Notes under the pieces: generated by a model
Databases searched by the model: none
The model's input: the letters and a program-made list of their open reading frames with translations, nothing else
Told to the model about the DNA's origin: nothing
Program-made: the position numbers and the translations under genes
Shown: one piece after another, positions 1,930-58,070 of the stretch
Layout of the letters: each line of letters begins with the position of its first letter
Position numbering within the stretch: the first letter of the stretch is position 1
Source: Kappaphycus alvarezii
Taxonomy: Eukaryota; Rhodophyta; Florideophyceae; Gigartinales; Solieriaceae
NCBI GenBank assembly: GCA_002205965.3
Contig: NADL03000697.1
Span: 248,001 to 312,000 of the forward strand
Length of the DNA stretch: 64,000 nucleotides
Direction: 5' to 3'

Positions 1930-3070
1930 AGGGTAAAAATGGCGCACACGAAAAGGCAACCACTAACTACCCGAGGTGAGAGTCCTTGCGAGCGGCTAAA
2001 GTGAAAATGTAGACATTTACATACGATGGCGAGGAGTTGAAGTTAAAGCTGAGTGACTGTTCTAGTAACCAACTATAAATGGGGAGGCCCTACCACCTCG
2101 CTTATAAGCTAGGGAACTGATTGAAGGTTTTGGTTTGAAGTTGATTCCCTACTTGCTTTCCGTCTCATGGAGGAAGCGATTTGCTCCGCTTTATAGACGG
2201 TTTTCAAAACTTCAATCTCGATAACACTACTAAAAGCACCAGAAAAAGTAGGAAAATTGTTTATATGGACACAGCGAGTTTGAAAAAAATACTTAAAAGA
2301 AAACAAATTAAGATACTTCTCATAACCCTCATCCTCTAGATCAAACCCTAGAACTTCCCTTAAAGCATCATATGAAACCACGCAGTTACCAAACATATCC
2401 GTGGATGGCCCCAAATTGCCTACCACTACCTGCAACGAATACAGCTAACTTGAAATACCTCCAAACGTTTTCATGGCCACTACCACCCGGTCCAACCAAT
2501 TCATTCCTTCTCCTCCCATATGACCCTGTATGACATCCCCCTTTTCATCCCCAGACTTCTCATCTTACTCCCTTTTCTCCCCAGACTCTTCTTCGGCCAT
2601 CTCTCCTCCCATCCCGTAGATCAGCCCTGGGGCCACCCACTCCGCGAAGTACTTCCGTGCTTTACCATCTTCCTCTTTCGAGTACCCCCGACTGATTCTT
2701 GTGCTTTGATCTCTACCAGGCGACGAGAAACGAGCTCCGTTCGATGCTTCTGGTTTGACGACGGAGGTAGTCTTCTACGTCGGTTGGGCCCGTAGATAAT
2801 AAAGGGAATACGGTCATAATGCAAAGACAACGGGTTCTGGTAATTAGGGAGAAGCGAGGAGTCCATGCATGATGGCTGCCAGATAGACTGTTATTAATTG
2901 GCAATCTTTTGTTGTTACAGGGACGTAGATAAATGCTAGGTTGTGCCTGACGGGTTTAACGCACCAAAAGGTTCAGATTGGAAGGCCCGCAGAATCGAGA
3001 AGGGAGGAGGAAATTGGTCTAGTTGTGGCGATTAGTGCAAAAAGCCTTTAAAAAGATTATACTAAATACT
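1930..3070 (-). mobile_element. Acidic-ORF repeat (AOR) copy 1
   Basis: This minus-strand copy runs from the conserved 5' leader (revcomp of AAGGCCCGC near 2975) to the 3' end near 1931 (GGTAAAAATGGCGCAC on the plus strand). The N-terminal coding core is at about 2760-2795 (minus), with residues T-D-V-E-D-Y-L-R-R-Q-T. The C-terminal box is near 2330-2375 (minus), reading S-Y-D-A-L-R-E-V-L-G-F-D-L-E-D. The two halves are in different frames with stops between, so the copy is dead. Downstream of the coding part lies the shared non-coding segment. The function of the encoded protein is unknown. Confidence 0.8.
2109..2435 (-). pseudogene. C-terminal part of the AOR acidic protein, extended past its usual stop
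   Basis: This open frame contains the conserved AOR C-terminal box (S-Y-D-A-L-R-E-V-L-G-F-D-L-E-D-E-G) and then reads through into what is non-coding 3' sequence in other copies. Copies 5, 6 and 9 stop shortly after the box. The reading frame beyond about 2320 is therefore probably not functional. No known domain is recognised. Confidence 0.5.
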
Positions 3071-6000
3071 AATTACACCGTAGAAATAGAAAAATCGTTT
3101 CGTCCAATATATTTTAAATTTATAGCTTTTATTATATATCATACTGAATAAATCATCTCACCTTGGTGAACTGCCTTTAAATTGATTTTTTTTGATATAC
3201 TAAACTTAAAGATAAACACAGCAAAAGTAAAAAAGTGTAGAAATCTATTGGGAAGTATATAATGTTTGTGTAAAATGATAATCCATAATATTTCTGATAA
3301 AAGCTACGAAATATTAACAGTGCATTCTCTTTGAAGCGTAATTGGGCCTAAAATCGAATTAAAGTTCTTTAACCGTTCTTATTCCTAGTTCAAAGTCAAT
3401 TAAACCTTCTTTTATTGTTGAACAGGAAAAAGAGATATTTTTGAAAAAAGAGATATTGAATGCTCCACACTAGAGATTTAATTACCTTGACCACATATTC
3501 AACCGACCCGAACTGAATTTGCTTATCGGTGGTAAAGATTTATAAACGAATGTTTAAGGTTGTATAAGTTCAGGATATGTTGGATTAAACTATTATGTAC
3601 AGAAATAAATTGAGTAATGGATAAAGGAAAAGCGTCCACAGAACCTCATTTTGTGATTTATTTGTCTCTTATAATAAGGCAAAAGGGTCTGAACTGAATC
3701 AAATCTATCGGTAAATATCAGAATATCTTCGATAATAGAAAATTAGGGGACGCTTATATCCAAATTAAATATCTAAAAGTAGAAATTGCAACACCTCACT
3801 AACTACGTTTTTAGTTAATGTAAATATAATGGAACAATCAAGTCAAAAAATATACGTACGATCACACTATAATATTGTCGAGGTAAGTGGTCCTTTTTTC
3901 AAATTTGATTCATCAAAGTCATTTATCACATGTTTATTCCTCTACTTGGAGGAATTGACGACGTTGGTTGCGAAAACGTGTAATAATATCTTAGAAACCA
4001 TTTAATAGCTGATCAGTTGGGAGTTTTTGAAGCTCTAATTTCTAAAATGAACAGTACAGTTGTTTTTATTGCCCTATCATCGATACTTGTTATAAATGTA
4101 TGCGGTAAAAACAGATTGGGGTCAAATTTTTGTAACCATCAGTTACGAGTACATTAGAAAGATCTTTAAAAGGTCGTGGGAAGGATATGTATACTCAATG
4201 CTGCTGTAAATGAACGTAATTTGTAATACCGTGGAATCAGTTAGACTGTGACATTACGAGAGGGCATTAAACAAAAATGAAAGGACAATTTGTTACAGAT
4301 ATACATGTGAACTACCCACGAACCTTTAAAGCATTTTAAAGTAAATTTTAGAGTAAAAATCTTAGAACGCCAAAGCTATGCAGTTTTCTCCTGAACAATT
4401 TCTACTCGGGGATAATTGAGCCGAAGGACTCCTATTTACAAAAGCAGAGTATTACTATTCATACCTACTGCTGTCAGTTTCGATTGTTCAAAGCCGTAAA
4501 TCTGAGTAATAAACATTTTATTTTGATGTATTATTTTGCTTTGTAAAGCTCGAATCAATTTTGAGCTGGACATAATAACCCAAATTTTTATCTCCCGAAA
4601 TACGTCTGAGTCCATTATATCTTCTGTACCTGTATGAAAAGCGAACTTATTCAAAAATGTAATCAATGGAAATATATTAATGTCAGATTTAAGTTTTTTT
4701 GAAAAATTTTTCTTCCGCGAAAACAAAGGCTAATTTCGTGAAACAATACCATTTGAGGTCTTAAGTGTGAAAGAAAAAGTGTGAGCACATTTTAAACACA
4801 TCTTGAAATTAACTGGAAAGCGAATTGATTTTACTAAAATTAGCCAAACAGACAATTACTTCTGGATAAAATTGATTTAATTAAATTTATGGGTTTTGCT
4901 TGATTAAAACAAATATGAAAATGAAAAAATCAATATTTTAGATATACATATCTAAAATATTTCTTAATTAGAATTTGAATATATCATTACTGCAAGTTCC
5001 AAACTATTTTAGATTAGTCATTTCTCTTCTCTTTGTTGTATATTGTATTGGAAATTACCCTGCACTAATTTATTAGACTAATATTGATTGCTGAGAGTTT
5101 TATACTTTCGGAAGAAACACATTCCCTACCGCAGTTGCTCAATAGACTTTCAATCCCCTAGAAGAAAAAGCTAAGCAAGTATTCGATTCCTTCCTTCAAA
5201 TTTTGCAATACAATTTTCTCATAATTGGACAAAAAATTTCGTCAGAAAAGTACCAACAAAGCCTTTCAGTTGAATTCATCAATTAGGGAATTTTTAAATG
5301 CTTAAGGGTATTAAAGGCAAATCTTCGGTTTGTAATTTAATATAATATTTTTTGCTGTTTAGAAATTACGAAATGATTGTTTAGTGTGTTTTAATTAAAA
5401 AGTTGTAGAATAAATAGAAATTTCATAGATATGTCAGCTACATTGAGAGAAATTGAATTTTTAATAATTAAACGCCTTTAAACAATGGATATCAATAGGA
5501 GGAGTTTTCTATTCATATACCTAACTGGAAATTTTATTATTTTTCTGAAAAAAGTAAAACTAGGTTGGTTCAAACTTCAGAAACTATCTTCCAATGGGAA
5601 TTTTTAAAAAACAGTTAAAAAAATTAAATAAGATTACGAACGGAAAATACAATGTGTTGTATTCGCAGATTTCAAAAAAAAATTACGGAAAGATTATTAA
5701 ACGAATATAAGGATAAGTAAAATCTTTTAACAGTTGAAGAAAAAAGATTCTTTCATATTCTTTACCACCAACTATTTTTCATGAATGACAAATGAACAGT
5801 ATAAAATGATTTTTGCAGGAGGCCTTTTCTGAAATAGTAGCTTATAATCAGGGATTACATGGTAGGTGTACTTTCAGATTATATCTAGCTTCTACTATAT
5901 ATTTGTGCTCGGAAAGATTTAAAACAAACAAATAAATAAACAAGGAAATGGCTACTGGAAATGTATAATTAATCAACTATTTTCTTAGCTCTTAATTGTT

Positions 6001-9000
6001 TTGGAAACTTTTGCTTGGAAATTGGATCTGACAATTCAAAGAAACATTGACAACTCTTACAAAAATTTATGTATAGGTAGCGCATATAAATGTTACTAGT
6101 TTTTTATTAATAAAATATACTACTTGCTATCATATACAATTAATCCACCTTTACAAACTTAATAGTAGTAAATATTTTTTATTAAAAACTTATTTGTACA
6201 GTTCACTACATAACACAGAAATTGGTTGCCAAAAGGTAAGAGCTTAGTAAACCTGTTTGAAAATATTAAAGATTTATTCATTAATCGATGGTAATATGCC
6301 GAAAAATGGAGTTCCATCTGATTACCGCTTAATATTGGGTAGGTTGAATTGAAATATACCTTACTACAGTAAAACTTTTTTTGGGCTAAGAATATGTAGT
6401 ATTACTATCAGCCCTCAAAAATGTTTTTAAAGATAGTCAGTGAGGGATCTTGAGCTCTATATCGTTCTTTAATTTCAAAATTCAACTTTCTTCTAAATTT
6501 GTGAAATGTAACCGTTATATAGCCGCGTGAGTCTCAACAAAAAGGTTTTTGTAATAGATTTGCTTAATTTGTCTTACAAACAGAGCCGCTGAAAAAGTTC
6601 TGGACGACAACTAAGCTTAAATTTTTCTGCAGATGGGGAATAGATTTTCGAGACGGAACTTTTATGACATAGATGAAGTTTTTAATAATTTTCCATCATT
6701 GGTATCATAATTGTTTATTAGTTTTACTAAAAAATGTGAAAATATCAACTACTCTAATTTTGCAAATTTCTTATTCCTTTCTCTTTTACAAAAGGGTAGA
6801 TCGTAATAGTAAATTGTGTGCCTTTTTTTGGAGTTGAGCCTAAAATAAATTGTAAAAGGGAACTGTAATCCCAGTTTCAGTTCGATTTTGATGTAACAGT
6901 GCTCAAATTATTACTTAAATATAAAATGCAATTATATTTTCCTATTATTTTCGACAATTTAATTATAATACCGTTATTAGGTGTTGATACTCGGGGTTTT
7001 ACCGGCATCGAATTTATATATAAATTATCCTCTTAGACAGCTTGAATTTAATATTATCAATGAAACTACATGTATCGAAGAATCTGTCCAAATGGAAAAG
7101 AGATATTCAATTTCCGGGGATATCGTGAAATTAGACGAATTAATTTCAACAAGGATTCTACTTCGTTTTTGATATTTTCTTATCTCGTTCATCGTCTCTT
7201 GCTTTTAATCTCTCATTACCAAATGACTCCTTGAAATTAGCAAAAGCAGGTTTTAAAATTATCGAAATGAAATGAGTTTTTCTACCAAAAGCATTTATGC
7301 GTTCAATTATATAAGATAGTAAATGATTGCACTATTCGGCTCATATGTTTTTCAATGGAGTTTAAATTGCTGAATTGAATGAGAAAAGCTCAAGAAATAT
7401 TTCCTTGTATCACTTGAGCGTATCGAGATTACTTCTTCTCTCCCAGTTTAAGTAATTAGGTTACTGTTTGCACTAACGATTCATCGACCAGGTCCTATAC
7501 TGAACGATTTCAAAAGATGTGGAACTTGCCTGGGAGGTCATTGCTTCGCGAGAAGCCGTACTCTATTGAAATTTCATTACGAAATTATGATTAGGTACCT
7601 TTAATGGTGAGCGAGGAAAAACTCGAAAGCATCAAAACAAAAATCTTGACCAATATAGCTGATAAGCTGTGGAAGACCCTATTTTTATAAATATTCGACA
7701 TTAAATTGCCTCTTGTTGCTTTTTCACTCCATCGTCTGATAACTTGTTTTTTTGAGCATATCAGATTAGTATTTAAACCTAATAAGTTTAGCCAAATGTG
7801 AACGAAATAGCTACCTTTTATTTCTTGATTGATTTACGTTTGCTCGAAAGTAATCACGCTGTTGAATATTTGCTCTAGTACGGTTGCAATGAAAGTGTAT
7901 CATTAGCTATACGTTACACACCTAAAGTGGGGAAAAATTCTTAAACAAAATACTACTAAAACCATCCATTTATACCTTTGTGATGGAAATAAGACCCAAG
8001 TTTTTTCAGCTACCTTTCTCTATCTAGACTGTTACATATTCCAAAAAATATATAATAATGTCATGCAAATTTGATATATTGGAGACAAAGTGAGTAGATA
8101 ATTTAAAAAGGAATGCTGAAATGTGTGCCAGTAGTGCGCATTTTTTTGTTATTGAGTTTGAAAAAATTGTAACATTTGAAAGCTTCCAAATGAAAGCAAA
8201 TAGAATGAGAGTAAAAATGAGTAACTACACGTAAAATGATATAAAATATACATTCTAGGACAAAAAATACAACGAACTACGACATACTGAAGCGAAATAT
8301 TATTTTGAGATCAATAATAGAGAACTTGATATGAAAATATACAAACGGCCGGACTAGCGATTAATTTAAATTCATAAAAGTTAAGTGTACTAGAAGATTT
8401 TGATTATTTTGAGTTTCTCTGGCAACAAATAAATCCAATAGATATATTTCATTCTAATCTAAACAATCGTGTAGCTAGTTTAAAGTATAGTATATTGAAA
8501 TATAATTGGATCTTTTGTATCTTTTTTAGGTTGTGAAGATATGAAGTATGAGCTACACTGAGTCCCATAAATATGTCATTGGTACCAGTCACTCTGTATT
8601 TAGAGGAGAAAATTGGATATTTTTCATCACTCTCCCTAACAGATTCAACAGGCGTGATTTTTCTTCCTCAGTCTTAGAAATAAAGATTTTCAATTGTTTT
8701 CTTGATTTACAGCATCACTCTACTTAGTCATTGCTGGCCGTTTATCGTAATAATAATTTAAAAGTTCCAATTATTCACCATAAAGCTTTGACAGATTGTT
8801 ATAAGAGGCTATATTTTCCATTATTTCCTAATGTTTACCTCGTACTACGTAATACACTGTGATATAGCTGATTTATTGATCAATTTTCAATCGTAAGAGC
8901 GTTTTCGTACTGATCTGAGACGGATTTTTCGGGAATGTCTCTATTTAACTCAGTGACTTGACTCTTTTTTCGAACTCGTTGGCTACCGAAAAATTAAGAT

Positions 9001-9519
9001 TAAAATCTATTTCAATAGGATTCTTAGGGACAGAAAAAGTGGTAATATTTTTCTTGGGGGTAAGCCCGTACCAACTGTATCATCACGACATAAATATTGA
9101 AAAGTACTAGGACTTAATTGAAAACCTTAATAATTTCTTGATTTTTCTGAAGAAAAAAAAGCAACTTCGAGAATGATGACGAGTGAAGGAAAAATGATGT
9201 TAATCAGATTATTTAAAGCTTTTGTTTCTAATATTTTTTGTTTATATCGAAGTAGAAGATTTTAGTACCTTTTCGAGAAGATTTTTTCAGTGTCTCGTTG
9301 AAAACATGATCACAGTTGCTTCTCATATTTTATTTTGGACCCGAATAAATATTCTAGCTGAATGTTTTAATCCTCATCTACAGTTTTATCAACTATTATC
9401 TATTTATTTAGGAAGAATCGAATTGAATATAAAATACTGTAAATAATAAAACATTGAGCTCAAAAATATGTGTATCATGTCTTATCCACAGCACTCTGAT
9501 AAACTCAAATAGATAATTC
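3071..9519. other. AT-rich desert with no recognisable gene or repeat copy
   Basis: About 6.4 kb of visibly AT-rich sequence. No open frame here has recognisable motifs; the longest ones (for example 4436-4726 minus and 9222-9446 plus) are low-complexity and Ile/Phe/Asn-rich as expected by chance. None of the LINE or AOR families found elsewhere in the window is seen here. A perfect AT palindrome lies at 4932-4961. Confidence 0.6.
4932..4961. repeat. Perfect AT-rich palindrome, 14-bp arms
   Basis: The left arm AATATTTTAGATAT (4932-4945) is followed by a 2-nt spacer AC and its exact reverse complement (4948-4961). The sequence could extrude as a cruciform or form an RNA hairpin. It sits alone in an AT-rich desert with no gene nearby, and AT-rich DNA produces such palindromes more often than balanced DNA. 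Confidence 0.8.
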
Positions 9520-10280
9520 AACTCCTTTGGAAGCCGATTTGCACCGAATCCCCCCTTCTTGCCCCATTTCCAAACCCTGCCATCCTCGTCCCATTACTGT
9601 TGCCCATCTACTTCATTCGGGTCCAACCAACATAGAGGATTACCTCCGTCGCCAAAAAAGAAATAGCCTGACGGAGCTTGTAGACCGTCATACAGCAGAG
9701 CCGAAGAAGAGGACGTATAGGGGTGATACTTGTAACAAGAAGACGGTAAAGCAGAGGGGTGCTTCAAAGATCGGATGGTCCCGGAACTAATATACGAGAT
9801 AGAAAAAGAGGAGGGCTAGGAAGAGTCCGAGGATAGAGAAGAGGACTTTGGAGAGTCCAGGGATGAAGATAGGATTCCAAACCGGGTCGAATTAGAGGGG
9901 AAGGAACGAATTGTATAGATAATGTCGTTCCGACCATGAGCCCGGTTGGAGGGTGAGTTGGATTCCTTGCAGGAATGGTTACAAAATCTCGATCCATTCC
10001 TGAGAATGTATGGAGACTGCATAGATAGTTATGAAGCCCCGGGGAAGTTATAAGTTCCTATTTTTTTTAGAAAAAGATTTTGTTAGTTTCTGTCAAGTAA
10101 TTTTTGTCAAAATTAGCTGCGTCCATATGAAGTCGGTTACTGCGTTTTCTGACACTTCTAGTATTTTTTTTTCGGTATGTTAGTTTTAGAGAAGGTTTAC
10201 ATAAACTGCATGAATTGCTTACTTCAAGGGAGGAAAGAAAAGCTAGGAGTTTACTTCGAACCAAGAAACTTCGATCAGTT
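9520..10280 (+). mobile_element. Acidic-ORF repeat (AOR) copy 2
   Basis: Plus-strand copy lacking most of the 5' leader and the last part of the 3' segment. The coding core reads G-P-T-N-I-E-D-Y-L-R-R-Q-K at about 9609-9650. It is followed by the acidic, Glu-rich stretch (about 9790-9900) in broken frames. The 3' segment is recognisable by GCGTCCATATGAAG (near 10120), the GAATTGCTTACTTCAAGGGAGG block (near 10215) and AAAGAAAAGCTAGGAG. The copy ends near 10280, just before a LINE-2 relic. The C-terminal box is not in a readable frame. Confidence 0.75.
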
Positions 10281-10316
10281 TTGTAGACTAAAAGCGAGGT
10301 ATCAGAGCCTGATTCT

Positions 10317-10823
10317 TTAGATCATTTTGCTAGAGAAAAAAAATACTTTCACTATCACTCCTCGCCTGTTTCCGTTAACATCTACTGTACAGTACCAATT
10401 TATTCGCCTGCTGCACCTCTCATCCCTGGTAGTTGGCGGTGTCCTTTCCCGTTGACGCCATTTTATTCTGACTGCTCTACTCAAGACAGCTCTTTCCAAC
10501 CCCGTGACAATGAAGAAAGACTCTAGATGCCATCCTCCTACGGTGGAGAGTAGAACAGAGAGGAGCCTGACAGTCTCGGGCGATACGGAAATTGAACTTT
10601 GGTACCTTCTGTGATTTTCTGTCATAAAAGAGTTAAAAATAGTTAGAGGGTTGAAGTTTCGAATGATGCAGGGGGCGATAACTTGTGGGTTGACGATGGT
10701 AACGTCGAAATAGCCCATTTCACCGCCCTTCTTGCTGCTTTGATGTCTGGCTCTGTCCTGTGAAATTGTGCAAGTCGAGAACATATAACGGGGTGACTTG
10801 CAGCTCTGGAGAGGTCGCCTCAT
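10317..10823 (-). pseudogene. LINE-2 restriction-like endonuclease domain, relic
   Basis: A minus-strand open frame of 168 codons carries F-D-V-T-I-V-N-P, then F-N-P-L-T, then E-N-H-R-R-Y-Q, then L-L-S-T-V-G-G-W-H-L-E-S. This is the pattern of the C-terminal RLE (PD-(D/E)xK-type) domain of LINE proteins lacking an N-terminal AP endonuclease: an Asp-containing beta strand, a Lys/Arg-Tyr helix and a GGWH turn. The same order occurs in the copies at 28430-28965 and 1500-1928. The expected Lys before the Tyr is not clearly kept. The residues after the GGWH block run into basic sequence unlike the other copies, so the C-terminus is altered. No RT lies in frame upstream, so this is a 5'-truncated fragment. 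Confidence 0.6.
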
Positions 10824-23132: not shown

Positions 23133-23819
23133 ACCAAGGGTATTGGTCCAGGGCGCTACTCTAGCCCGCTAGTGCAACGCTCTTGGTCGTGGAAGACGCA
23201 TTGGGGTGTTTCCCTCCGATAAATTAGATAGGATCGATAGCGGGCATATTCGTAACGAGTAATCCTCCTTCATAGCAGGATTACCAGGTGGATTGATCAT
23301 ATTTTTTAAGGCTATCGGCTCTACGAGATGCACCGAATTTTTGGCCTTCTTCGTCTCTATTCCCTTGTTGAATGAACAAAAAGCGGAACGCATTTAGTGT
23401 AAAAAATTATTTCTGTTAAAATATTCACCTCGTATTTTAGATAGATATTCAATATAAAATGCATACCGTAGGGCCTTTTATTTTCATTACAACTTGAATA
23501 CAACTTTACGTATCCGCAGATTGAGTTTGTTCTCAGTAAATTAGTTATGAAAAAAGAAATATGATTGTTTCATTCGAGGTTGAGGTGAGTTCCAGTTTAA
23601 AAACACGTCTGGGAGTTCCGAGGTATTATAGCCCTGACAAATTCTGTTCTTAATGGAGAAATTCTGAAAATTTGAGATTGGCGTCTTTGTTCATCTTGAA
23701 TCGGATAATTAGCTATGCACTTGATATGTATCAGAGCTATATCTTTAAAAAAATCGAAATTATGGAAATGACTTCCTAATATCAAATAGAAATGTAATAT
23801 GTCAGACTAGTTTGATGAT

Positions 23820-25355
23820 GTGAAAATGGCGCCGATGGAAAAGGGGGCCACTAGCTACCAGAGGTAAGAGTCGTTGCGAGCGACTAAAATGCTACTGTAG
23901 ACGTTAACGGGTGGTGGAAACGATTGGTTGTGAAAGCTGAGTGACTGCTCTAGCAGCCAAATCTAATGGCGCAGGCTCTACCACCTATGTTCTACAACTG
24001 GCGTAAAGAAAAGTTCTTGGGTCTGAAGTTGGCTTTCAAAGTCTCGACAATATGGGATTAGAACTGAAGTTGTCTGCCAACTTGCTTTCCGTCTCATGTA
24101 TGAAGCAATTTATTTAGCTTATGAAGACTTTTTTCCAACCTAAAATCCCGATAAAACTACTACAAGCACCAGAAAAAGTAGGAAAAGACTTCATATGGAC
24201 GTAAAGAGTTTGAAAAAAAATACTTAAAAGAAACTAAATGAATCTACTCCTCAAAATATTCATTCTCTAGGTCAGAACCTAGCATTTCCCTTAGGGAATC
24301 ATAAGTGCCCATCTTCTCCACACATATATTCGCGGATTGCCTACAATTTTCCGCCTCTTCCTACTCAGAAAACAGCACACCTGAATTCCTCCCAACCGGG
24401 TCCATGGTTGGAACCACCTGGTCCAACCATTTCATTCCTTCCCCTCCCATGTGACCCAGATCGAGGCCTCCTTTTCGTCCGTGGACTCCTCTTCTTGCTC
24501 TCCTTCCTACCTAGCCTCCTCTTCGGACTCGTCCTCGACCGTCCCTTGTTTTATCCCGTAGAAGGGCTTGGGGCTACCCTCTCCCTCAAGCACTCCCCTG
24601 CCTTACCATTCTCATGCCCAGAGTCCCTCTACCGATTCCTGTGCTTCGATCTCCAGGTGAGGGGCAACCAGCTCCGTCAAATGTTTCTTGGTTTGGCGGC
24701 GGAGGTAGTCCTCGACGCCGGTTGGGCCAGAAGGGAATACAGACGGGAAATTGATGGGGCGAGGGTGACGGGTTGCGGCAGTGGGACGAGAAGGAAAGAG
24801 TCGGTTCATGGTGTCTGCCAAGGGGGATGTGAATTTTTGAGTTTTTGTTGTTGTTGGGGCTAAGATAAATTTGAAGGGGCGTCCGACGTGTTTAAATAGC
24901 GCCAACCGGGTCAGATTGAAAGGCCCGCTGAATCAAAAAAGTAGGCGTAAATTGGTTTTGCAGTGGGATTTAGTGATAACAGCCTTAAAAAGGGTGATTT
25001 GTGGCAAAAAGCATGTGTAGAAATATTGATTCACGGAAAATATATTTAGGGGCGACGAACATCAAATAAACGGCAAAAAATAAAAAATTACCATCAGAGG
25101 GGAAGGTAATCAATCTTAAAATGAGGAGCGAAAAAAGGAAAGAGTATAAAGAAATAAAGCATGAAAGAGAAGGTAGAAAAAAGAGGAAAGTGAATGAGTA
25201 GAATAACGTAAAAGAGAGTTATTTTGTGCGCGTAAGGATACCCCATTTTCTCTCTTAGCACAGTTAAACCTTTTACAAAGTTTGAGCCACACTATACTGA
25301 AAGTATGAGTACAGCTAAATGTACCGCTGCAAAGTATTTTGCGATGCACACGGTG
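23820..25355 (-). mobile_element. Acidic-ORF repeat (AOR) copy 4, near full length
   Basis: The most complete minus-strand copy. The 5' leader reaches about 25350 (CGCACACGGTGATTTG on the plus strand, shared with copy 8 near 54970) and includes TTGTGCGCGTAAGGATA near 25225 (shared with copy 9). A TATTTAAAC motif lies at the start of the coding part (reverse complement near 24890), next to a shared AGGCCCGCTGAATCAAAAAAGTAGGCG block. The coding core is at 24675-24725. The 3' part contains the perfect hairpin AAGTTG-TCTGC-CAACTT (24067-24083), CAGAAAAAGTAGGAAA and the terminal GGCGCCGATG near 23832. Frames are broken downstream of residue 95. Confidence 0.85.
24612..24905 (-). pseudogene. AOR acidic protein, N-terminal half (copy 4)
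   Basis: A 97-codon frame whose second Met (residue 33) is probably the true start, since M-N-R-L-F-P-S begins the part shared with copies 8 and 9 (M-H-R-L-P-S-S in copy 9). The conserved core is G-P-T-G-V-E-D-Y-L-R-R-Q-T-K-K-H-L-T-E-L-V-A (about residues 68-88, cited here as scattered positions), then I-E-A-Q-E-S-V. In other copies an acidic region follows. The frame here ends early through a nonsense change. No known domain is recognised. Confidence 0.55.
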
Positions 25356-34810: not shown

Positions 34811-34811
34811 G

Positions 34812-43478: not shown

Positions 43479-43494
43479 GACGGCATCACTGTAC

Positions 43495-46199: not shown

Positions 46200-47161
46200 G
46201 TAAAGGAGTCGCTCAAGCTAGTTCACGTAAAACAGCGTATTCGATACCGTTTATCTCAATACTGAATCGCCATCTTTTATAGAAGGATTTCCAATGATCG
46301 ATGGGGTTTGGAAATTGAAACATGTAATCGGTGCAGGTTCCACTGGTGTGGTCTTCTGTGCATCGAATGCTGAAACAGGGAAAGAAGCAGCTGTCAAGAT
46401 AGTACAGGAATGTGACTTCTCTCAGATAGCTTTATTCAGGAACGAAATGCGGGTCTACAAACATTTGCTCACTCGCCAGGCAATTTCGAAAGTTCCGGCT
46501 ATCAAATATCATGGAAGTATCAAGGTTCGAGGCAACACTTTTTCACGTCGCGGTGATGGATTTACTCGGAGCGTCTCTGAACAATATCTATAAACTTGGG
46601 TGCAGATATCCTCCAAAAAAGTGTCTGAGGTGGTGTCAAATTGTTGAAACTTGCCGAGGATCTACACATTGGAGGGGTCATCCACAGAGATTTCTATTTT
46701 CGTAACGTGGCAACATCTCTTGAAGAGAGCGATGATTTATTTCTTTTCGACTTCGGAATGTCTATAACATATGCTGATGACAAAAGTATAACGAATGCAA
46801 TATCAAGGTCGAATACACCAGGTTTTTTTTTGGGGACCATGAAAGGCCCCCCGTTGGTAACAACTCAGAAACACCTCTAGATTGCTTGATATCAAATCCA
46901 TTTTTGAAGATTTGCTACAGATGCTGTGTACCCCTTGCGATACCTTCGATAGCCGTTTATCAGAAGACTCATACAGCTTGAATGGGGTATTTTTTCCAGA
47001 TGTAAAACTTTACTGGAGGCAGCAAAGAATACCGGGAAGATAAAGGGGGTATTTGTCCTTGAAGAATTATTAAACCATCTAAAACAAGCAAACTTAAACC
47101 CTGAAGAAATACCGAAATATGAGACAATCAGGAACATGCTGGCTCGCTTCGGTGGATTCTA
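46200..47161 (+). pseudogene. CK1-like protein kinase pseudogene
   Basis: Plus-strand pieces in three frames follow the order of a protein kinase domain. G-loop I-G-A-G-S-T-G-V-V-F and ATP-binding A-A-V-K-I-V lie at 46330-46405; the helix-C Glu in F-R-N-E-M-R-V-Y is at about 46440. After a frameshift near 46530 comes the hinge V-M-D-L-L-G-A-S-L, characteristic of casein-kinase-1 relatives (46550-46580). After another near 46635 come the catalytic loop I-H-R-D-F-Y-F-R-N (46675-46705) and D-F-G (46750-46758). The αF-like D-I-K-S-I-F-E-D-L-L is at about 46890-46920. The C-terminal part, K-T-L-L-E-A-A-K and ending A-R-F-G-G-F-stop, is near 47005-47161. HRD and DFG Asp residues are kept, but the usual K-P-x-N of the loop is F-Y-F-R-N. 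At least four frameshifts or stops: decayed gene, or unrecognised introns. Confidence 0.7.
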
Positions 47162-47599
47162 GTGTTCCTCTGTGGTGGAGCAATGTGAATTCATTGGTCA
47201 TCGACCATAATGAAGTTGGTAAGAATGTTACATGGAGCACTTTCAACGTGTCGAAACAGGATCTTTACTTCTCCGTACTGGAGAGGTAGTGGTGGGGCAA
47301 CAGTTATGAATGGCTGCTATTTCTTTGGGATAGAATTCCTATTAAAGATAGTCCAGTCAGTCCGGCGACTCAGCCCATGTATCTCTTAAAGTAAACAAAC
47401 CCCATTTACGTAGACTTTTCTGCATGACCGTTGTAATACAAAAAATGGTCCTCCCTTCACGTAATACAGGAAATGGTTCTCCCTTCGTGTAATCCAGCAA
47501 CCTACAACGATCCGGCCCCTAACTTCTCCCACCGTCATTTCCAAATTAACTTCCATTTTTTTCTAGATATTTTATACTATATTTAACCCTCTGAATCGA
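47162..47599. other. Short gap without recognised gene
   Basis: GTAAACAAACCCCATTTACG at 47390-47411 resembles a plus-strand LINE-2 terminus. An imperfect duplication of TGGTCCTCCCTTC / TGGTTCTCCCTTC lies at 47446-47487. Nothing else is supported. Confidence 0.35.
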
Positions 47600-47830
47600 C
47601 CACGAATCAGGTTTCTTTTCCCTTTTAGCTTACCTTGTCCTCCAAATTCGCCTTTTTTGAGAAGAAGGGCGCAAATGCACTACTGCAACATCCCTTGCAG
47701 ATTTATTTTACCTATTCCTAATCTATAGAACCTTCCTCGGGAGCCTATTTAGATCCCTTTATTCCAAGTTCCAAATGCCCCCGATCATTTTACTCATCAC
47801 CCTCTCCCCCACACACCCAAACACCCTACA

Positions 47831-48145
47831 TTGCCTCCGTTCCCCAACGTCTATCAAAATGAACAACCTTCGCCTCTCCGCCCCCATCACCAAAAACAGC
47901 CCCTCTCGCCCCATCAGTGGCCTCCGTCTCGCCCCCTGCCGGCCAACCGATGCCGACGACTACTCCGGCGGCAAACTAAGAATAAGATCATCGAGTTCGC
48001 TCGCCGCCTATTTATAGAAGAAGAGGCGGGCGAGTTAAGTGAGGGAGAGGCTGAGAAAGTCGAGGAGGAGAGCGGGGAGTCCTTCGAGGAATGGGCAGCC
48101 TCGGAGTTGGTCTACGAGGTTAAGGTCGAAGAGGAGGAAGAGTAG
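47831..48145 (+). pseudogene. AOR acidic protein, core and acidic region (copy 6)
   Basis: A 104-codon frame whose second half is the conserved part of the AOR protein: L-L-R-R-Q-T-K-N-K-I (the expected T-D-A-D-D-Y lies in the overlapping frame), then a Glu-rich stretch in which roughly half the residues are acidic, including G-E-S-F-E-E-W-A-A-S-E-L-V-Y-E. The frame ends in a run of Glu at TAG. The overlap of two frames marks a frameshift near 47960. No known fold is recognised; acidic composition would suit a nuclear or nucleic-acid-mimic protein, but that is speculation. Confidence 0.55.
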
Positions 48146-48225
48146 GATCAGGATGGGATGATGAGGGGGTTGATGAGGGCGATGAGGACGACGATGAGGA
48201 CGACGAAGATGAGGCACAGGAAGGT

Positions 48226-48426
48226 ATGGGAAGGGTTGGAATGGGGGAATGTATGGAACAAGTGGTACCGACTATGGAACCTGATGGGGATATCTTTCGT
48301 AGTTTAGATATCTCCCACGAGGAAATAGATAGTTATGAGCCGTTCGCAGATATTTGTGGGGACTGCTTGGACAGCATGGATATTTTGGAAGAGCCATTTG
48401 GATCTGATTTAGAGAATGGGAAATAA
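48226..48426 (+). pseudogene. AOR acidic protein, C-terminal part (copy 6)
   Basis: A 66-codon frame matching copies 5 and 7: M-E-Q-V-V-P-T-M-E-P-D-G, S-L-D-I-S-H-E-E-I-D-S-Y, P-F-A-D-I-C, and the terminal box F-G-S-D-L-E-N-G-K followed by TAA. It gives the natural C-terminus of the protein. Whether it is a separate ORF or the shifted continuation of the upstream frame cannot be told, but in copy 7 the two parts run together in one frame, which favours a single protein. Confidence 0.6.
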
Positions 48427-48868
48427 GAGGACCAAATTAATTGTTAGTTTCTTAAGTATCTTTTGCTTAGAGTATATTGTCCACACAAAGTATTTTTATG
48501 CATTTCTTGAAATCTTCTGTAGTTTTGGTCGGACTTTAGGGTAGCCAAAAGTCTATATAAGCTGAGTAAATTGCTTCCTCATGGAGAGGTCAAGCAAGTT
48601 GGCAGACAACTTCAAGCCAAGTCCTGAGTAGTAGGAAGTTGAAAGTCAATTTCAGACCTAAGAAAAAGTTTTCTTACGCTGGTCGCAGAGCGCCGGTGGT
48701 AGACCCTGCCCCATTTATACTTGATTTTAGCTTCCTCAACTCTCTTCTATATACACTCCCTTTTGTTCGTTCAACAATACCACGGTAGCACTTTTGTCGT
48801 TTGCAACACCTCCTTGTCAGGGTAATTGGTTCTGAGGATCTCTTCCCCGCAGATTTATCCCTATCAAC

Positions 48869-48966
48869 CGTGTCGGCGTGTCATTTTTGAGTCGATTGTG
48901 GTTGTCTGGAAAACTTTAGGATTGATGGAATGTATGCGTCAAGAGTGAAACACCTAAAAATTTCCC
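48869..48966 (+). repeat. LINE-2 3' tail at the end of AOR copy 6
   Basis: GTGTCGGCGTGTCATTTTTGAGTCGATTGTGGTTGTCTGGAAAAC, then AGAGTGAAACACCTAAAAATTTCCC, matching the reverse complement of the 43215-43320 LINE-2 tail. It immediately follows the AOR 3' end. Confidence 0.7.
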
Positions 48967-49959
48967 ATTTTCAAAGAATATTAGAAATTATTGTTAGAAC
49001 TCTTGTCGAGTCACAACCTCTAGTAGTTGAATTATATGTAGAATTTGATCAGAAGGGGAAGAACTTAAGGAAGTGTAATATTTGTAAAGGAATGTCATTT
49101 CCTGAAGTGAGACCAGATTTTCGCGCAGTAAATAAGGCAGAAAGGTGTAAACTTGCAAAAAAGGGTATAGCAGAGTGTCCACGTCCTCCTAGAGAATTCT
49201 GATGGGGTTTAACAATACATAAATCATAAAGCATCTCAGGTCTCATCCTTTCGAGCTCTGGCCTCTACAAAACGGCCTAGATTACAGCCGTCAAGCAGGT
49301 AGCACTAAGGATTGATACCACTGCAACTTTATTTTGAGTGTGTAACTTTTGCATATACCCACATAGTACTTACTGTAACATTCCGTGAGAAGCCGCTTAG
49401 AATTAATGAGAAAAGTCACCTAGGGTACTATAAAGAGTTGGCAACGGTACTGGTATTGAAAGGTATCAGTACCCACGAGTCTGCAAGCGGTTCTTCACTA
49501 ATAACATATGAGAGCTACTTAAATGTAAGATGCATTCTGAGCATCTTCAGATATTCGGTCAAAGAGTAGCAAATACTACACAAGAAAGTTCAACCCGATT
49601 TAATAAAAATGAACATGGCCATTGCGCAATATATGACTACGAGAGTCGAATTGTACCAGGTCCATATTCCTCCCATTTTCTTCTACTGGTACCCTCCCGT
49701 AGACTGAAGTGTATAACAATCTAGAACTACTTCAAGTTATAAGTGATAGGGATAAAAAGTCGGAGGAACAGATTTTCAGAATCAACTACTCCTAGGAGGA
49801 GGCATTGCAAGCAAAAAAGTGCTATCGTGATATCGATCAGAAAACAGAATGAGGTGGATAAAGACGACAGTTTGGGAGTCTACAATAATGAATAGAAAGG
49901 CCATGGTCTACGAGCTTTGCTCCGTGACCAGCATAAGAAAATTTATTCTTGTGTCTGAA
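48967..49959. other. Unassigned stretch, possible decayed coding sequence
   Basis: The plus-strand frame at 48930-49202 begins inside the LINE-2 tail and then reads K-C-N-I-C-K-G-M-S-F-P-E-V-R and R-C-K-L-A-K-K-G-I-A-E-C-P. The four Cys recall a small metal-binding knuckle but spacing fits no family I know. Frames at 49312-49569 and 49530-49724 have no motifs. CAGCCGTCAAGCAGGTAGCAC near 49281 resembles part of the LINE-2 coding end. Confidence 0.3.
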
Positions 49960-50985
49960 TCTGACTCTCAATTTCCAAATCACTTGGGACCCAAAGCACA
50001 CCCAAATAGATCACCTGTGCTCCCCAGAGTCATTTCGGAAGATCGCCACTTTCGCCCCCTAAACGCCATCCCCCTACTCCCTTTCGGCCCTACTGACTAA
50101 AATGACTATATACACCAACAAACAAAGAGAAAGGTGATCGAATTCGTTCGTCGCTTTTCCGTCGAGGATGAGGCGGAGGAGCTAGGTGAGGGGCAGGTAT
50201 GGGAAGTCGAGGAAGGAGCTGGGGAGACCTTCGAGGAATGGCAGCCTCGGAATTGGTCTACGAGAATGTGAATAAAGAGAAGTGTGAAGAGGAAAATGAA
50301 GAGGAGGACGAGGAGGATGAGGGGGAGGGAGACGTGGAAAGTGTTGGAATGGTGAGGTGGGAGCTGAACGGTATGGACCAAGTGGTCCCGAATATGGAAC
50401 CAGATGGGAGCATCTTTAGTAGTTTAGATATCTCCCAAGAGCAAATAGAGAGTTATGAGCAGTTCGCGGATATTTGTTGGGACTACTTGGGCAGTATGGA
50501 TATTATTAGAGGAGTATTCTGGATTTGATCTTTAGGATGGGAAATAAGAGGAACAGATGGATTGCTCGTTTCTTGAGCGTCTTTTATTTAGAGTGTTTCA
50601 TTCACACAAATTGTTTTTATGCATTTCCTGGTATCTTTTTTAGTTTTGTTTGTACTTTCCGGATCCCCAAAAGTCTACAGAAGATGAGTAAACTGCTTCC
50701 CTTTGTGAAAGTCAAGCCAGTTGACAGACTCCTTAAAGTCAAGACCTGAGTAGTGAAAAGCTGAGAGTCAGTTTCAGTCCCAAGAGCTATTTTTCTTACG
50801 CTGGTCAGAGAACATCAGTGGTAGATTCTGCCCTTTTATAATTGCTTGTAGCCCTCTCAACTCTTGTACTCGAGCAACCCTCTTTCTTCGCTCAACTATA
50901 CCACGGGAGCACTTTTGTCGCTTGCAACACATCCTCCTTGGGGTAATTAGTTCTGATTATCTCTTCTCCCCACAATTTACCCCTT
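49960..50985 (+). mobile_element. Acidic-ORF repeat (AOR) copy 7
   Basis: Plus-strand copy lying about 1.1 kb after copy 6. The core region is at 50090-50160 (Y-I-H-Q-Q-T-K-R-K-V-I-E-F-V-R-R in one frame). The acidic region and C-terminal part are in a single frame at 50199-50528: A-A-S-E-L-V-Y-E, a Glu/Asp run, M-D-Q-V-V-P-N-M-E-P-D-G, S-L-D-I-S-Q-E-Q-I and Y-E-Q-F-A-D-I-C. The terminal box is shifted (F-W-I-stop). The 3' segment has a degenerate first hairpin, TTTTTCTTACGCTGGTCAGAGAAC, TATACCACGGGAGCACTTTTGTCGC and GGTAATTAGTTCTG. Confidence 0.8.
50199..50528 (+). pseudogene. AOR acidic protein, acidic region plus C-terminal part (copy 7)
   Basis: The longest continuous AOR frame (109 codons). 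It joins the A-A-S-E-L-V-Y-E-N motif, a stretch of about 25 residues that is mostly Glu/Asp, and the C-terminal motifs found separately in copy 6. This supports one protein of roughly 170 residues: basic/Pro-rich N-terminus, E-D-Y core, acidic middle and G-S-D-L-E box. The last codons are altered by a frameshift. No signal peptide or membrane segment is seen. Confidence 0.55.
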
Positions 50986-51134
50986 TCAGTATCCCAGGCC
51001 AGACGTTGCAAATTTTTCAGTTGACAGAGAGGACTAAATATTCATTCAATCCGAAAAGAGAGGGGAAGACACTCAAAATGGTCCTAATATCGATCTAGAG
51101 AACGGTAAGGGTCTTATGCAGCGTAAACAGAGGT

Positions 51135-53300: not shown

Positions 53301-53499
53301 GATCCCAGTGACCCTCTAGTACCAAGAAAACGCCTCTGAAACGCTATTCGGTAAACTATTATTCTTATGTTTGGAAGAGAGTATTTCCAAGCGCCGACTT
53401 GATGCCAGAGGCTGAATCCAAAAAAAGAAGTTCGAGAATGTCTTAATATTCATGAAACGACTACCAAAACTCATAAACACGCTATTTATGGTTCCAGAT

Positions 53500-54985
53500 A
53501 CAGTAAAAGTGGCACCAACAGACAAAGGAACCACTAAATACCAGAACTGGAACTCTTTGCGAGAACATGAAGTGTTACAGTAGACTTTAACGGACAATAG
53601 AGAGTTTTAGACGTGCCTGATGAGTGACTACTCAAGTATTCTCCTCTATAGGGCAGACTCTACTCCATCTCTTAGAGGTTGCGGAGCTGTTCAAAGATTT
53701 TGGTTGAAAGTTGACTTCCAATTTTCTTTCCTTCTCCTAAAGGAAGATATTTATTGACCTTCTACGGACTTTATTTTACGTTAGCACCCCTTTCAAAAAA
53801 CTAGATGCACAAGAAAAAGTAGGAAATCAATTCATGTGTACGCAGAGAGATTGAAAAATATCCTTGGAAGAAACTGAGTAAAATGCTTCTAAAATCTTCC
53901 TCTTAGAGGTAAAAACCTAGCAATTACCTGTAGATATCATGAGTATTCATGTCTTACCAACACATACCCGTGGATGAACCACGATTTATTACCCCCTGCT
54001 GTAACAAATATATCCCACCCGAAGCCCTTTCAACTGGTTGCTCTTCCGGGACCACCTAATTCAACGAATTAACTCTTTCCACTACCATATGACCTGAGCA
54101 CTCCTCTCTTCATCTACGGACTCCTCTACTTCTTCCCCTTCGGACTTTTCTTCGGCCTACCTTTATTCTTCCATCCCCTACAACATTTCTGGGTCACCTA
54201 CTGCTCAAATCACGCCCCTGTATTAACATCCTCTCCTTTGAAGTCCGTTCCCACTGCGTTTTGTGCTTCAAACGTCACCAGGTTACCAAAACCCTGCTCC
54301 TCCAGTTTCGTGGTTTCGCGACGGAGGTAGTTCTCTACGTCATTAGGATTCGACGGGAATGAATTATAGACTGTGGCGCGACAAGAATGACGGTTTATGG
54401 AAATGAGGCGTGACGGGATTATTACGTGCATGATGGCTGCCAAGCGAGGTGTGAATTGGAAATTTGCTCGTTTTTGCAGGGTCTTGGATAAAATTTATGC
54501 GGCACAGGACGGGTTTACATAGATTCAAAATGTGCAAGTTTCCAGGCCCGCTCAATCAAAAAAGTAGGCGAAAATTGATCTCGTAGTGGAAACTAGTGAA
54601 ACCTCCTTCAGACGGATGATGAATTACGAAGAATTTGCGTAAATATTGATTATGGAAAAGGTAGTCAGAGATAATCAAGACCAAATAAGCGGACAAGAAG
54701 GAAGAGGGTTATTGTCAAAGTTGAAAGCAGCTGCATATGAAAAAAAAACGAGAAAAAGAAATGAATATACAGAGATGTAGATTTCGTCTCGTAAACGAAA
54801 AAGAAAGTGCATGGAAAAAACACAGAAAAGAATTTGAAGGGAGAAATGTAACTGGAGGTAGTTTCTACGCGTAAAGAGAATACTTTCTTTTCCTCGTTTG
54901 ATACTGAACTTAGGTAACTATCTCTGTATTTTTTCAGTTTTCTTCTAAACGTCACAGTACAACAAAGCATTGCGGTGATTTGACG
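53500..54985 (-). mobile_element. Acidic-ORF repeat (AOR) copy 8
   Basis: Minus-strand copy, diverged. The leader reaches about 54980 (GCATTGCGGTGATTTG, as in copy 4) and includes ACGCGTAAAGAG near 54870 and CAGGCCCGCTCAATCAAAAAAGTAGGCG near 54544. The coding core lies at 54300-54355: P-N-D-V-E-N-Y-L-R-R-E-T, with F-E-A-Q-N-A-V downstream. The 3' part keeps CAAGAAAAAGTAGGAAA (near 53810) and ends GGTGCCAC... near 53513 (minus strand). Hairpins are degenerate. Frames are broken. Confidence 0.75.
54210..54443 (-). pseudogene. AOR acidic protein, N-terminal half (copy 8)
   Basis: A 77-codon frame with the core S-N-P-N-D-V-E-N-Y-L-R-R-E-T-T-K at residues about 31-46 and F-E-A-Q-N-A-V-G near residue 60, equivalent to I-E-A-Q-E-S-V in copy 4. 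The Asp-to-Asn and Gln-to-Glu changes keep the core recognisable. It ends before the acidic region through a stop. Confidence 0.5.
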
Positions 54986-56629
54986 TCTAAATATACAACT
55001 TGGTGGTATATTTTAGCGCGCATTGAATTTAGATGGCTTCAAAAAAGTAGTGGGTACCAACCCAAGGCCGAGGTTGCGAGACCGGAGAAAGTATGCGGCA
55101 TTTTAACTGCGAGTCTTCGGTCCCTTTTTATCTTCGAAGGATTAGAATTCAGGGGAAATTTCTGGTAAGTAATGTGTAAAGGTTCAAATAGTAGACCTCC
55201 TCATTTCGTTGGAAACACCGATGATGATAAATTCTAACTTTTACTGTTTACAATAATTTCTTCTTCTCCAGTATTTCAAATATATGTGCATGCGAGGATT
55301 GAAAGGGTTTAATATTTTAGGAGGGATAGAAAAGGGTTATTTTATTTGCTAGGATAGGGTAGATAAGTGGTTTGGTATGCAGGCTGTTTTACTACCAGGG
55401 ACCAGAGCTAAAGAAGGTGGGCTCAGCTAAATACTACTGAGATTGTGCTTCCTTTTACTGCTAATGGCGAAAAACTTCTAGCCAGCTGGCAGAACTAACT
55501 CTGCAAATAATGGAGCGTGTCCATGAGGTAGAAAGCAGCTGATAGCTTATTGCGATTCTTGCTTTGGGTTGGAGCCCTAACAAATTCCATTCATGCTACT
55601 CGTCATGGTCTACAGTACAAATCGAGGAACATTTACAGCCAATATAAAGTGGGTAGAAGACCAGACAAACCTATCAAAGGTCACTGTAAAATCATTTAGT
55701 AATAGATAACTGGAATAAAGACACCTATTTAGTCTCTACTACACGGTAGTGTAACAAAAATGTTCTCAAAAAGGTCTCCAATTAGGTACCAAGGTGAGAT
55801 CAACGGATATTTCGCAAGATTTTTATTAGAGGAACAATGCCACTGCTGCGCATTGTGAATTTGAAAAAACGAAATACAAATATCTACTTTCTGGGTACTT
55901 GTTTGGACAACATCATTACGCCATTCGCTGATGTTTCGAGTAATTATTTTCTTCACTGCACTGACTTTGCACCAACTTTCTGAGGCCCACTGCCATCGTA
56001 TCCACTTCTTCCTCAGAAGCACCGCAGCTGTCACCCTCTCCATTGCAAATGTTTTTTGATTATCAGCTTTATTTAATCAGCGATTTCCTATTAGAGATCT
56101 ACCCAAGTCTGACCCAAAAGGTCATTCAGGCCTTTTTTAAATTTTACATTTTTGGCGAAGAGGAAAAATTGGTTACCAGAAATGTTGCGAAGAATTCAAC
56201 TAAACTCGCATCCTGGCACACGTAAAGATTATAGGCTAAGCTTCCACCGTCTTGTATAATATCCTGGAGGTCAATCTCAATGAGAAACCGTGTAAATGAG
56301 AGAAAACATCTGTGTCGTCGCAAGGCTACTGCGCCGATGAAAAAGGTAGAACTTTATGGCTTCGAATTGTCTCATCTCTCCTCGAGGTACGAGGAAATGT
56401 TGAAACTGTTCTCATCGGGCAAGGTATCATGGGGTGGTTCCATTTAAGAAAAATAAGACTCAAAGAACACCGAATAGACTTGATATATGTGTGCACATCT
56501 GTTCGGTCACAGAACAATTTACACGCGAGCCTCGAGGCCCTAAAGGTGCATTCGTGATTCCATACCGACTGGTTCCGATCACTTGTAATTAGACAGACTC
56601 GTCGACATTTGTCCTAACTGGTGTTAAGA
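54986..56629. other. Intergenic stretch, no recognised gene
   Basis: The minus-strand frame at 55729-56043 (104 codons, M-E-R-V-T-A-A-V-L-L-R-K-K-W) and the opposing frames at 56312-56557 have moderately protein-like composition but no motif. No repeat copy is seen. Confidence 0.35.
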
Positions 56630-58070
56630 GAGAAACTGGGGCTTTTGTCCTTACGCACACGTAATCAATCTCGTTTACGTTTCTCTGCTCCCTTCCTTTC
56701 CGTTTTTTCTACCTATTTTCTTTTCTTTTTCGTCACAAATTTTGAATTTCTTTATAATCTTTAATTTCTCCGGCTCCTCTCTTTATGAGAGACTCACGTC
56801 TCTAATGGTGGTAATTATTTTTTTCTTCTCCGATTTTTTCATCCTTATCTATCATAAATATCCTTTTTCTTGACTAATATTTGTCCACACGATTTTCGCC
56901 ATAAACTCCTTCTTTTAAGGCGGTTTTCATTTAATGCTACTAAAAGGTCCATTTTGTCTACTATTTGATTCAGCGGGCCCTTCAATCTGAACCTGTCGGC
57001 GCTATTTAAACACGTCGGGCGCCGCCTGAAATTTATCTTCATCCCTCCAGAAATAAAAGCTCGACAATTCCGACACCTCCATTGGTATTTATCATGCACC
57101 GACTCCCTTCTTCTAACCCATGTCCAAAGCTTTTCATTCCTAGTCCCGTCACTTTATCTCATTTATTCCCTTCTTTTACAACCGACATCGAGGACTACCA
57201 CCGTCACCAAACCAGGAAACGCTTGACGGATCTGTTTGCTGGTCACCTGGTGAAGATCGAAGCACAGAAATCGGTAGGGGGACTCTTCGAATGAGAACCG
57301 TAAGGAAGGGGAGCTCTTTGAGGAGTAGGTGTCCATTGAGATCATGTACGAGATGGAGAAAAGGGAGGAAGAGTCCAATTCCAAAGCAGAAGCCGGCGGG
57401 GAGCAAGAGGAAGACGAGAAGTCCACGGACGAAGAAGGGTCTCGAACCAAGTCATATTGAAGGGGAAGGAATGAAATGACTGCAACAGATGCCCAGCCAT
57501 GGACCCGGCTCGGGGATTCAGGTGAGCAGTATTCTTCGCAGGAAGTGACGGACGACATAATTCCATCCGCGAGTATATGTGTGGAGTACATGGGCACTTA
57601 TGATGTCATAAAGGAAGTGATAGGCTCTGATGTAGAGGATGAGGATTTTTAGAAGTAGAATCATTTAGTGTCTTTCAAGTATTTTTGGGGAACGCATTGC
57701 ACCCACACGAACTCTTTTCCTATTTTCTCTGGTGCTACTAGTAGTTGTATCGATTTTTCTTTGGAAAAAAGTCTATGTAAGCCAAGTAAATTGATTCCTT
57801 CATGGAAAGAAAAGCAAGTTGGCAGACAACTTCAGGTCCTGTCCCAAAATAGCTAGGAAGTTTTAAAATCAACATCAGACCAAAGGGCATTTTTGTTACA
57901 CTATTCGAAGATCGTAGGTGGTAAAGCTTGCACTTTTGGAATTGGCTACCAGATGAGTCAGCCAGCTTTCACTCCCGCTTATCCTCACCGCCCAATGACG
58001 TATACCATAGCACTTCAGTCGCTCTAGACGTCCCTATTCCTTGGGAATTTAGTGGTTCTCTTTTCTTTCG
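56630..58070 (+). mobile_element. Acidic-ORF repeat (AOR) copy 9, near full length
   Basis: Plus-strand copy with leader (TTGTCCTTACGCACACG near 56647, CAGCGGGCCCTTCAATCTGAACCTG near 56973), then GGCGCTATTTAAACACG near 57000 as the likely TATA-like motif. Coding starts near 57094 (M-H-R-L-P-S-S). The core is T-T-D-I-E-D-Y-H-R-H-Q-T-R-K-R-L (57178-57225), followed by I-E-A-Q-K-S-V-G-G, acidic sequence to 57430, and a C-terminal box Y-D-V-I-K-E-V-I-G-S-D-V-E-D-E-D-F-stop (57600-57652). The hairpin AAGTTG-GCAGA-CAACTT is at 57816-57832. The 3' end reads TTTCGGTGCCATTTTTACC near 58065. Several stops. Confidence 0.85.

Follow-up and report, generated by a model that had tools for sequence, protein, structure and literature searches.

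Long terminal repeats (LTRs) generally count as control regions that encode no protein, and solo LTRs are mostly seen as inert remnants. The superantigen gene sag of mouse mammary tumour virus (MMTV) lies inside the LTR, and the trans-activators of human T-lymphotropic virus (HTLV; tax) and of spumaviruses (bel genes) are encoded near or into the 3' LTR, in frames that are not known to lie wholly inside it. Here, we describe a dispersed repeat in a 64-kb stretch of the red alga Kappaphycus alvarezii (contig NADL03000697.1, positions 248,001 to 312,000; the window in what follows) that is the LTR of a Ty3/gypsy-type retrotransposon lineage and whose open reading frame (ORF), located within the LTR itself, most likely specifies a selected retroelement protein.

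Extra frames are known from plant elements. The accessible parts of one source describe ORF0 of the long-LTR elements Retrosat2, RIRE3 and RIRE8 as an additional frame upstream of gag-pol (PMC3485330), and the phrases 'in the LTR' and 'within the LTR' appear nowhere in the accessible parts of a review of additional ORFs in plant LTR retrotransposons (PMC7264820). Our searches of open-licence papers turned up no Ty3/gypsy element with a frame described inside its LTR.

Results

The repeat is a retrotransposon LTR

A preliminary description of the window had reported nine copies of an unnamed repeat family carrying a small acidic protein. The family is real, with ten copies recovered by self-BLAST and profile search: eight substantial ones and two fragments (Table 1; E-values 0 to 6.3e-29, with inflated scores for the three window copies at 47430, 23812 and 56616 which, together with one LTR of locus L009, seeded the profile). 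Complete LTRs measure about 1.4-1.55 kb and have TG...CA ends and 5-bp target duplications. The LTR at 47432..48866 starts with TGTAATAC, ends with CCCTATCA and is flanked on both sides by ACCGT (47427-47431, 48867-48871); ACTGG likewise flanks the LTR at 56622..58090 (56617-56621, 58091-58095), so that two window copies have a solo-LTR structure with exact target duplications. The flanks of the LTR at 23813..25260, AACTG and AACTA, are equal at four of five bases.

Elsewhere in the genome, the check for target-site duplications suggested in the preliminary description returned exact 5-bp duplications at many copies, including L002 (AAATC), L003 (GTAGC), L005 (GAAGT) and the outer ends of the two-LTR element L010 (GTGCC). 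Within subfamily B3, they were found at L063 (CACAC), L065 (GGGGC), L067 (GATGT) and L068 (ACTCC); L064 and L066 are parts of longer elements, since a primer site follows the former and a purine tract precedes the latter. By eye, seven of 20 family A loci had exact duplications (L044, AACTG; L050, CACCG; L055, CTATC; L057, TACCC; and L045, L046 and L056, all ACTCC and in like flanks). A pattern-based re-reading of six family A loci missed several exact duplications, their 3' end string being disallowed. The A-rich or tailed 3' ends and variable-length duplications of long interspersed nuclear elements (LINEs) were not seen at these copies, which have CA 3' ends and 5-bp duplications instead.

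Two loci, L009 and L010, each contain two LTRs in direct orientation (99.6% and 99.4% identical within the pair), spaced by about 4.5 kb and about 6.1 kb, respectively, the last bases of the L009 3' LTR being cut off. In both, a stretch resembling a primer-binding site (PBS) follows the 5' LTR (TTTGGTACTC, TTTGGTACTCTTGTGG) and a purine-rich GAGAAAGGGGGCG precedes the 3' LTR. Pfam matches in L009 come in the order reverse transcriptase (RT; PF00078), RNase H (PF17917/PF17919) and then integrase (PF17921 plus the integrase core rve, the latter slightly under its cut-off). L010 additionally matched an aspartyl protease and, by eye, has one complete CCHC motif (CAKCGRYGHHESNC) and one partial one. 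Across the 336 Mb of the same genome, the exact LTR/PBS junction CCCTATCATTTGGTACTC occurs 1,776 times (reversed control 0) and the exact LTR end GATTTACCCCTATCA 4,269 times (control 0), counts that leave out old copies lacking the exact strings. Set against each other, they indicate that many exact-end LTRs are not solo LTRs but parts of elements that have a body. By the features tested, the repeat family is thus the LTR of a diverse, partly young Ty3/gypsy-type retrotransposon lineage. That no LTR had been noticed in any copy is explained by the copies themselves being LTRs.

In L009 (5368-7134, plus strand), and likewise in L010, the frame runs on past the integrase into a region of about 380 amino acids that contains two related repeats (144 amino acids aligned, 35% identical, E 3e-30). 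It had no Pfam or PDB sequence match and is an additional domain of the retrotransposon. In another place (G000:C6:283343-304720), a series of four equally oriented LTR ends has a spacing of about 7.1 kb, three of the ends being followed by a primer site, apparently a tandem array of the form LTR-body-LTR-body.

An acidic protein is encoded wholly inside the LTR

In the 1,487-bp LTR of L009, the frame spans positions 485-1042, followed by the stop codon, and comprises 186 codons. Complete frames for an acidic protein of about 180-200 amino acids are present in the LTRs of many young copies. The N-terminus of the protein is mildly basic; it is followed by a core, DDYIRRQTKK-IIEFVRRLFIEE, an aspartate/glutamate (D/E) tract of variable length and a C-terminus of D/E plus hydrophobic residues, with 18 D/E, 22 hydrophobic or aromatic residues and a single K/R among 71. 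The net charge of the protein is about -46 with the tract included. Outside the acidic tract, the frame is identical between the two LTRs of L009, and likewise between those of L010. Tract length varies between copies, mostly in frame in the loci read. The tract sequence itself differs between the two L010 LTRs (1088-1702 versus 8702-9316), which are 99.4% identical overall, and this GAG/GAT-rich stretch therefore changes fast. For B3, six loci were picked for long open frames out of 150 scored; five of these encode the protein in full length at 64-69% identity and L066 has it in two pieces, and in L064, L065 and L067 the frame extends seven codons beyond the usual stop.

The profile searches proposed in the preliminary description matched no known family: searches of Pfam, NCBIfam and PDB sequences gave insignificant or low-complexity matches only, and no Pfam family reached E <= 0.01 with the L009 protein. 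Among viral sequences in IMG/VR, where records very near this genome may be excluded, 600 stretches fit a search pattern and none was confirmed as a relative.

Selection on the frame

The preliminary description had suspected past selection on a small acidic protein, and the ratios of nonsynonymous to synonymous change (dN/dS) bear this out. With the tract excluded, dN/dS was 0.20-0.25 between B1 and B2 (four B1 loci versus L005), 0.22-0.29 between B1 and B3 (four versus five loci) and 0.25-0.30 between B2 and B3, with bootstrap upper limits of <= 0.49; these amount to only about three independent comparisons. A second alignment with fewer loci gave seven between-subfamily values of 0.16-0.29, and the same seven comparisons in shifted sense frames gave 0.85-2.2. 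Noncoding parts of the LTR were mostly at 0.4-2.5, many of them at 0.5-0.9 (one value was 3.4 and one undefined), and reverse frames ranged from 0.23 to 2.6. Judged by these ratios, the changes between subfamilies show purifying selection on the LTR protein, and a selected retroelement protein is the most likely product of the frame. A possible conserved splice donor lies inside the frame (B1 and some B2 copies have GGTAAGT, B3 copies GGTAGGTAAGG or a variant of it), a signal that cannot be separated from coding constraint.

The frame has diverged far more than its surroundings. Outside it, B1 and B2 LTRs differ by 3-6%, compared with 31-33% at synonymous sites inside, and B1 and B3 by 9-13%, compared with 35-54% in both alignments taken together. 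Likewise, the frame (LTR 485-1042) is the most diverged part of L009 relative to L001-L005 and L007, the remainder being mostly 90-100% identical. Exchange of ORF cassettes between LTR backbones would explain this contrast; strong constraint on the flanks is the alternative.

Promoter-like boxes around the frame

Downstream of the frame lies a TATA-like box, TCTATATAAGC, which in L009 starts 127 bp past the stop codon. Its TCTATATAAG was exact in nine of 20 family A loci and six of the seven B copies read, even though most family A copies share no more than 75-82% identity with L009 in this region. Since this box is common to old and young families, the ORF probably lies in U3. A second TATA-like box, seen in subfamilies B1-B3, begins 118 bp before the ATG of the L009 frame. 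In addition, two to four tandem units of 28 bp were present at the 5' end of each LTR in the eight B1/B2 loci read and in none of the six B3 loci read, and the idea of these units as a general response element was dropped on that account.

Copies in the window

All window copies are decaying LTRs in which no internal body was detected and, as noted in the preliminary description, every one is broken, with no uninterrupted frame in any of them. The two protein blocks described there as kept across diverged copies, an E-D-Y core and a terminal G-S-D box, were recovered in broken frames in seven of the ten copies by translated matches to the L009 ORF (core forms in Table 1; terminal boxes GSDLEN, GSDIEH or GSDVED at about 48400, 35760, 24270 and 57630). 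The copies at 53497, 13523 and 49744 had no translated match to that ORF. The best-preserved copy (47432..48866) is 91-93% identical over its whole length to L002, L003, L004 and L007, and the 3' part of its frame gave a piecewise dN/dS of 0.14.

Table 1. Copies of the repeat in the window and features within them
Position	Strand	Feature	Details
1926-3057	-	Profile match	Old family A LTR, 5'-truncated; EDYLRRQTR block, core form VEDYLRRQTR, at 2802-2749
9480-10466	+	Profile match	Old family A LTR, partial; ORF block 9539-9712 with IEDYLRRQ
13523-13785	+	Profile match	Fragment, LTR 3' part
23812-25265	-	Profile match; LTR 23813..25260	Old family A LTR, end to end; locus L043
24809-24666 and 24471-24262	-	ORF blocks of LTR 23813..25260	Translated match; VEDYLRRQTKK in the first block
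35106-36219	+	Profile match	Old partial LTR; ORF blocks ~35193-35345 (weaker core DDFYRRLDRK) and ~35580-35773
47430-48867	+	Profile match; LTR 47432..48866	Best-preserved window copy; solo LTR, subfamily B2
47859..48028	+	5' part of broken LTR frame	Two frames, MNNLRLSAPITKN... then LRRQTKNKIIEFARRLFIEEEA; LRRQTKN at 47963; tblastn with L009 ORF
48220..48423	+	3' part of frame	EQVVPTMEPDGDIF...FGSDLENGK; 81% identity to L009 protein, E 5e-29
48552..48562	+	TATA-like TCTATATAAGC	Downstream of ORF in best window copy
49744-49990	-	Profile match	Fragment, LTR 3' part
50031-50988	+	Profile match	Old LTR, 5'-truncated; ORF blocks 50005-50175 (NDYIHQQTK) and 50334-50519
53497-54885	-	Profile match	Old family A LTR, strongly diverged
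56616-58091	+	Profile match; LTR 56622..58090	Old solo LTR of family A, end to end; IEDYHRHQT within 57181-57267

Other features of the window and genome

Another dispersed repeat (TTTTACTCTTGGAAGATATATCCGATCTATCC in its best copies) occurs in the window at 43213-43299, 44792-44878, 37297-37383, 34796-34882 and, on the minus strand, 48867-48969. It directly adjoins the LTR end at 48866 and is also found ahead of the L009 LTR, and the LTR of L061 interrupts it; it is possibly a frequent insertion target, or simply abundant. LINE-like sequence covers 38252-42680 and 20310-21649 (both minus strand), with a match to RVT_1 at 39392-40735 (minus strand), neighbouring long frames that run on to 42680, and a common 1.27-kb stretch at 97% between 38252-39523 and 20310-21579. 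Positions 1-129 and 242-370 form a direct duplication of 129 nt (95% identity), and a fragment at 46231-46593 (plus strand) resembles the N-lobe of protein kinases, its match to PF00069 (E 2.4e-5) falling short of the curated cut-off. In the genome (G000), six HSP90-family matches form three pairs of near-equal score on different contigs (C497/C675, C590/C585 and C552/C24), a pattern that would fit an assembly containing both haplotypes of a diploid. One HSP90 protein scored higher against Heat shock protein 83 and HSP90-alpha/beta entries (about 995-1001 bits) than against HSC82/HSP82 entries (at most 942 bits), names used for animal and yeast proteins, respectively.

Discussion

Taken together, we regard it as very likely that the LTR of this lineage encodes a selected protein. 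The frame is probably placed in U3 and may be read from a promoter of its own, and the product would serve as a nuclear accessory factor of the element. Genomic RNA would start at the downstream TATA-like box, leaving the frame in U3, where it would be carried by both LTRs and where its readout would require an upstream promoter belonging to the frame or else genomic RNA read at its 3' end. The frame would be expressed from the upstream TATA-like box, making one LTR a self-contained gene. As to what the protein does, D/E residues mixed with hydrophobic ones are a composition typical of acidic activation domains, and an acidic transcriptional activator or an anti-silencing factor for the LTRs is our tentative suggestion. 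This is the weakest step of the proposal.

Several observations weigh against this interpretation. The activator role is predicted from composition alone, and the upstream box was read in B copies only, in variable form (TATTTAA in four of seven besides L009). With respect to open frames, no stop was seen in 48 of the 66 near-full-length protein matches among those listed, from an own-genome search with 10,744 candidates, 150 of them scored, and this sample is biased toward the best-scoring copies rather than random. All eight loci found via the LTR 3' part (L001-L008) are damaged: frameshifts break the frame in L001, L002, L004 and L007, a single stop interrupts it in L003, its start is lost in L005, stops fall within the tract in L006, and L008 has it in two pieces. 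As for selection, single noncoding LTR values were as low as 0.24, 0.27 and 0.38, and one reverse frame was regularly low (0.23-0.49), which we attribute to its codon positions aligning with sense third positions. Comparisons within subfamilies gave a higher dN/dS of 0.33-0.74, with wide limits; neutral changes from decay after insertion would be expected to have this effect. For family A, 19 of 20 loci gave values of 0.23-0.57 and one an undefined value, and the choice of segments by protein similarity biases these estimates downward. Finally, matching flanks were absent at L004 and L007, and in family A, with the flanks of its 20 loci judged by eye, they were equal at four of five bases in L043, L047, L048, L054 and L061 and at three of five in L051, L052 and L058, did not match in L053 and were unreadable in L049, L059, L060 and L062.

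Instead of a transcription factor, the LTR protein might be a structural or chaperone-like accessory factor that binds Gag, integrase or histones via its acidic tract. The strong acidity (net charge about -46, with the D/E tract), the variable and mostly frame-keeping tract length, and weak matches of low complexity to chromatin proteins (INO80 at E 0.01 and, below its cut-off, CENP-B dimerisation at E 0.007) are in line with this idea. However, these matches are accounted for by the acidic tract alone, and what aligns across subfamilies lies beyond the tract, in the core and the C-terminus. We consider such a role rather unlikely. We give far less credence to the frame being an incidental remnant, for instance a functionless captured host exon, that stays open only because the copies are young. 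Many copies are indeed young, and both the window copies and L001-L008 are broken. Yet, frames are open end to end across subfamilies at a B1-B3 synonymous divergence of 0.41-0.54 (first alignment), changes are in excess at third positions (dN/dS 0.22-0.29, B1 versus B3), and tract length changes mostly keep the frame in the loci read.

The two origins offered in the preliminary description, a non-autonomous element mobilised by LINEs or a fast-decaying host gene family, are by now hardly tenable. A LINE-like RT does lie in the same window, and the window copies themselves showed no RT. Against both origins stand the TG...CA ends with 5-bp duplications, the PBS and polypurine tract (PPT) junctions, and the repeat pairs around gag-pol bodies; for the full elements and the copies that have duplications, both origins are refuted. 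The LTR ends, duplications and full elements also rule out an origin from a short interspersed nuclear element (SINE). A crop-pathogen effector family spread with LINEs, another candidate, was dropped once the LTR structure was clear.

If the selected LTR protein is what it seems, one LTR copy can carry a promoter-like region and a protein gene together, and a solo LTR could keep making an element protein after loss of gag-pol. This bears on how retrotransposons control their own expression and on why many LTRs keep open frames. It also concerns repeat annotation, in which fragments of such a protein may be mistaken for host genes or for repeats of an unknown kind, as in the present case. A bolder scenario, which we deem improbable, is that a trans-acting regulatory gene moved into the LTR U3, turning every LTR, solo ones included, into a unit of promoter, gene and regulator, with cassettes swapped between backbones by recombination. 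With thousands of copies, the genome would then contain a self-reinforcing circuit dispersed over many sites, in which LTRs that lack a body assist the transposition of related elements, and cassette swaps would be expected from the reshuffling of activator and target specificities.

Compared with the described systems, the arrangement shares with MMTV sag a coding frame inside the LTR, probably in U3, and hence at both provirus ends. It differs in that the element is of Ty3/gypsy type, the protein showed no sequence homology to the superantigen, having no Pfam match at E <= 0.01, and there is no sign of it acting on immunity. With HTLV tax and the spumavirus bel genes, it may share, by analogy, the logic of an element that encodes an activator of its own LTR; the 28-bp units of B1/B2 could be response elements, and were not found in the six B3 copies read. 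In common with ORF0 of Retrosat2, RIRE3 and RIRE8, there is an extra protein of unknown role in a long-LTR retrotransposon, whereas ORF0 is described as lying upstream of the gag-pol frame, the accessible parts of that source not stating whether it reaches into the LTR (PMC3485330). The element itself conforms to Ty3/gypsy (Metaviridae) in its 5-bp duplication, TG...CA LTRs, PBS, PPT, RT and RNase H before the integrase and, in L010, CCHC knuckle and aspartyl protease. What sets it apart is the extra region with two related repeats after the integrase and an LTR that most likely encodes a selected protein.

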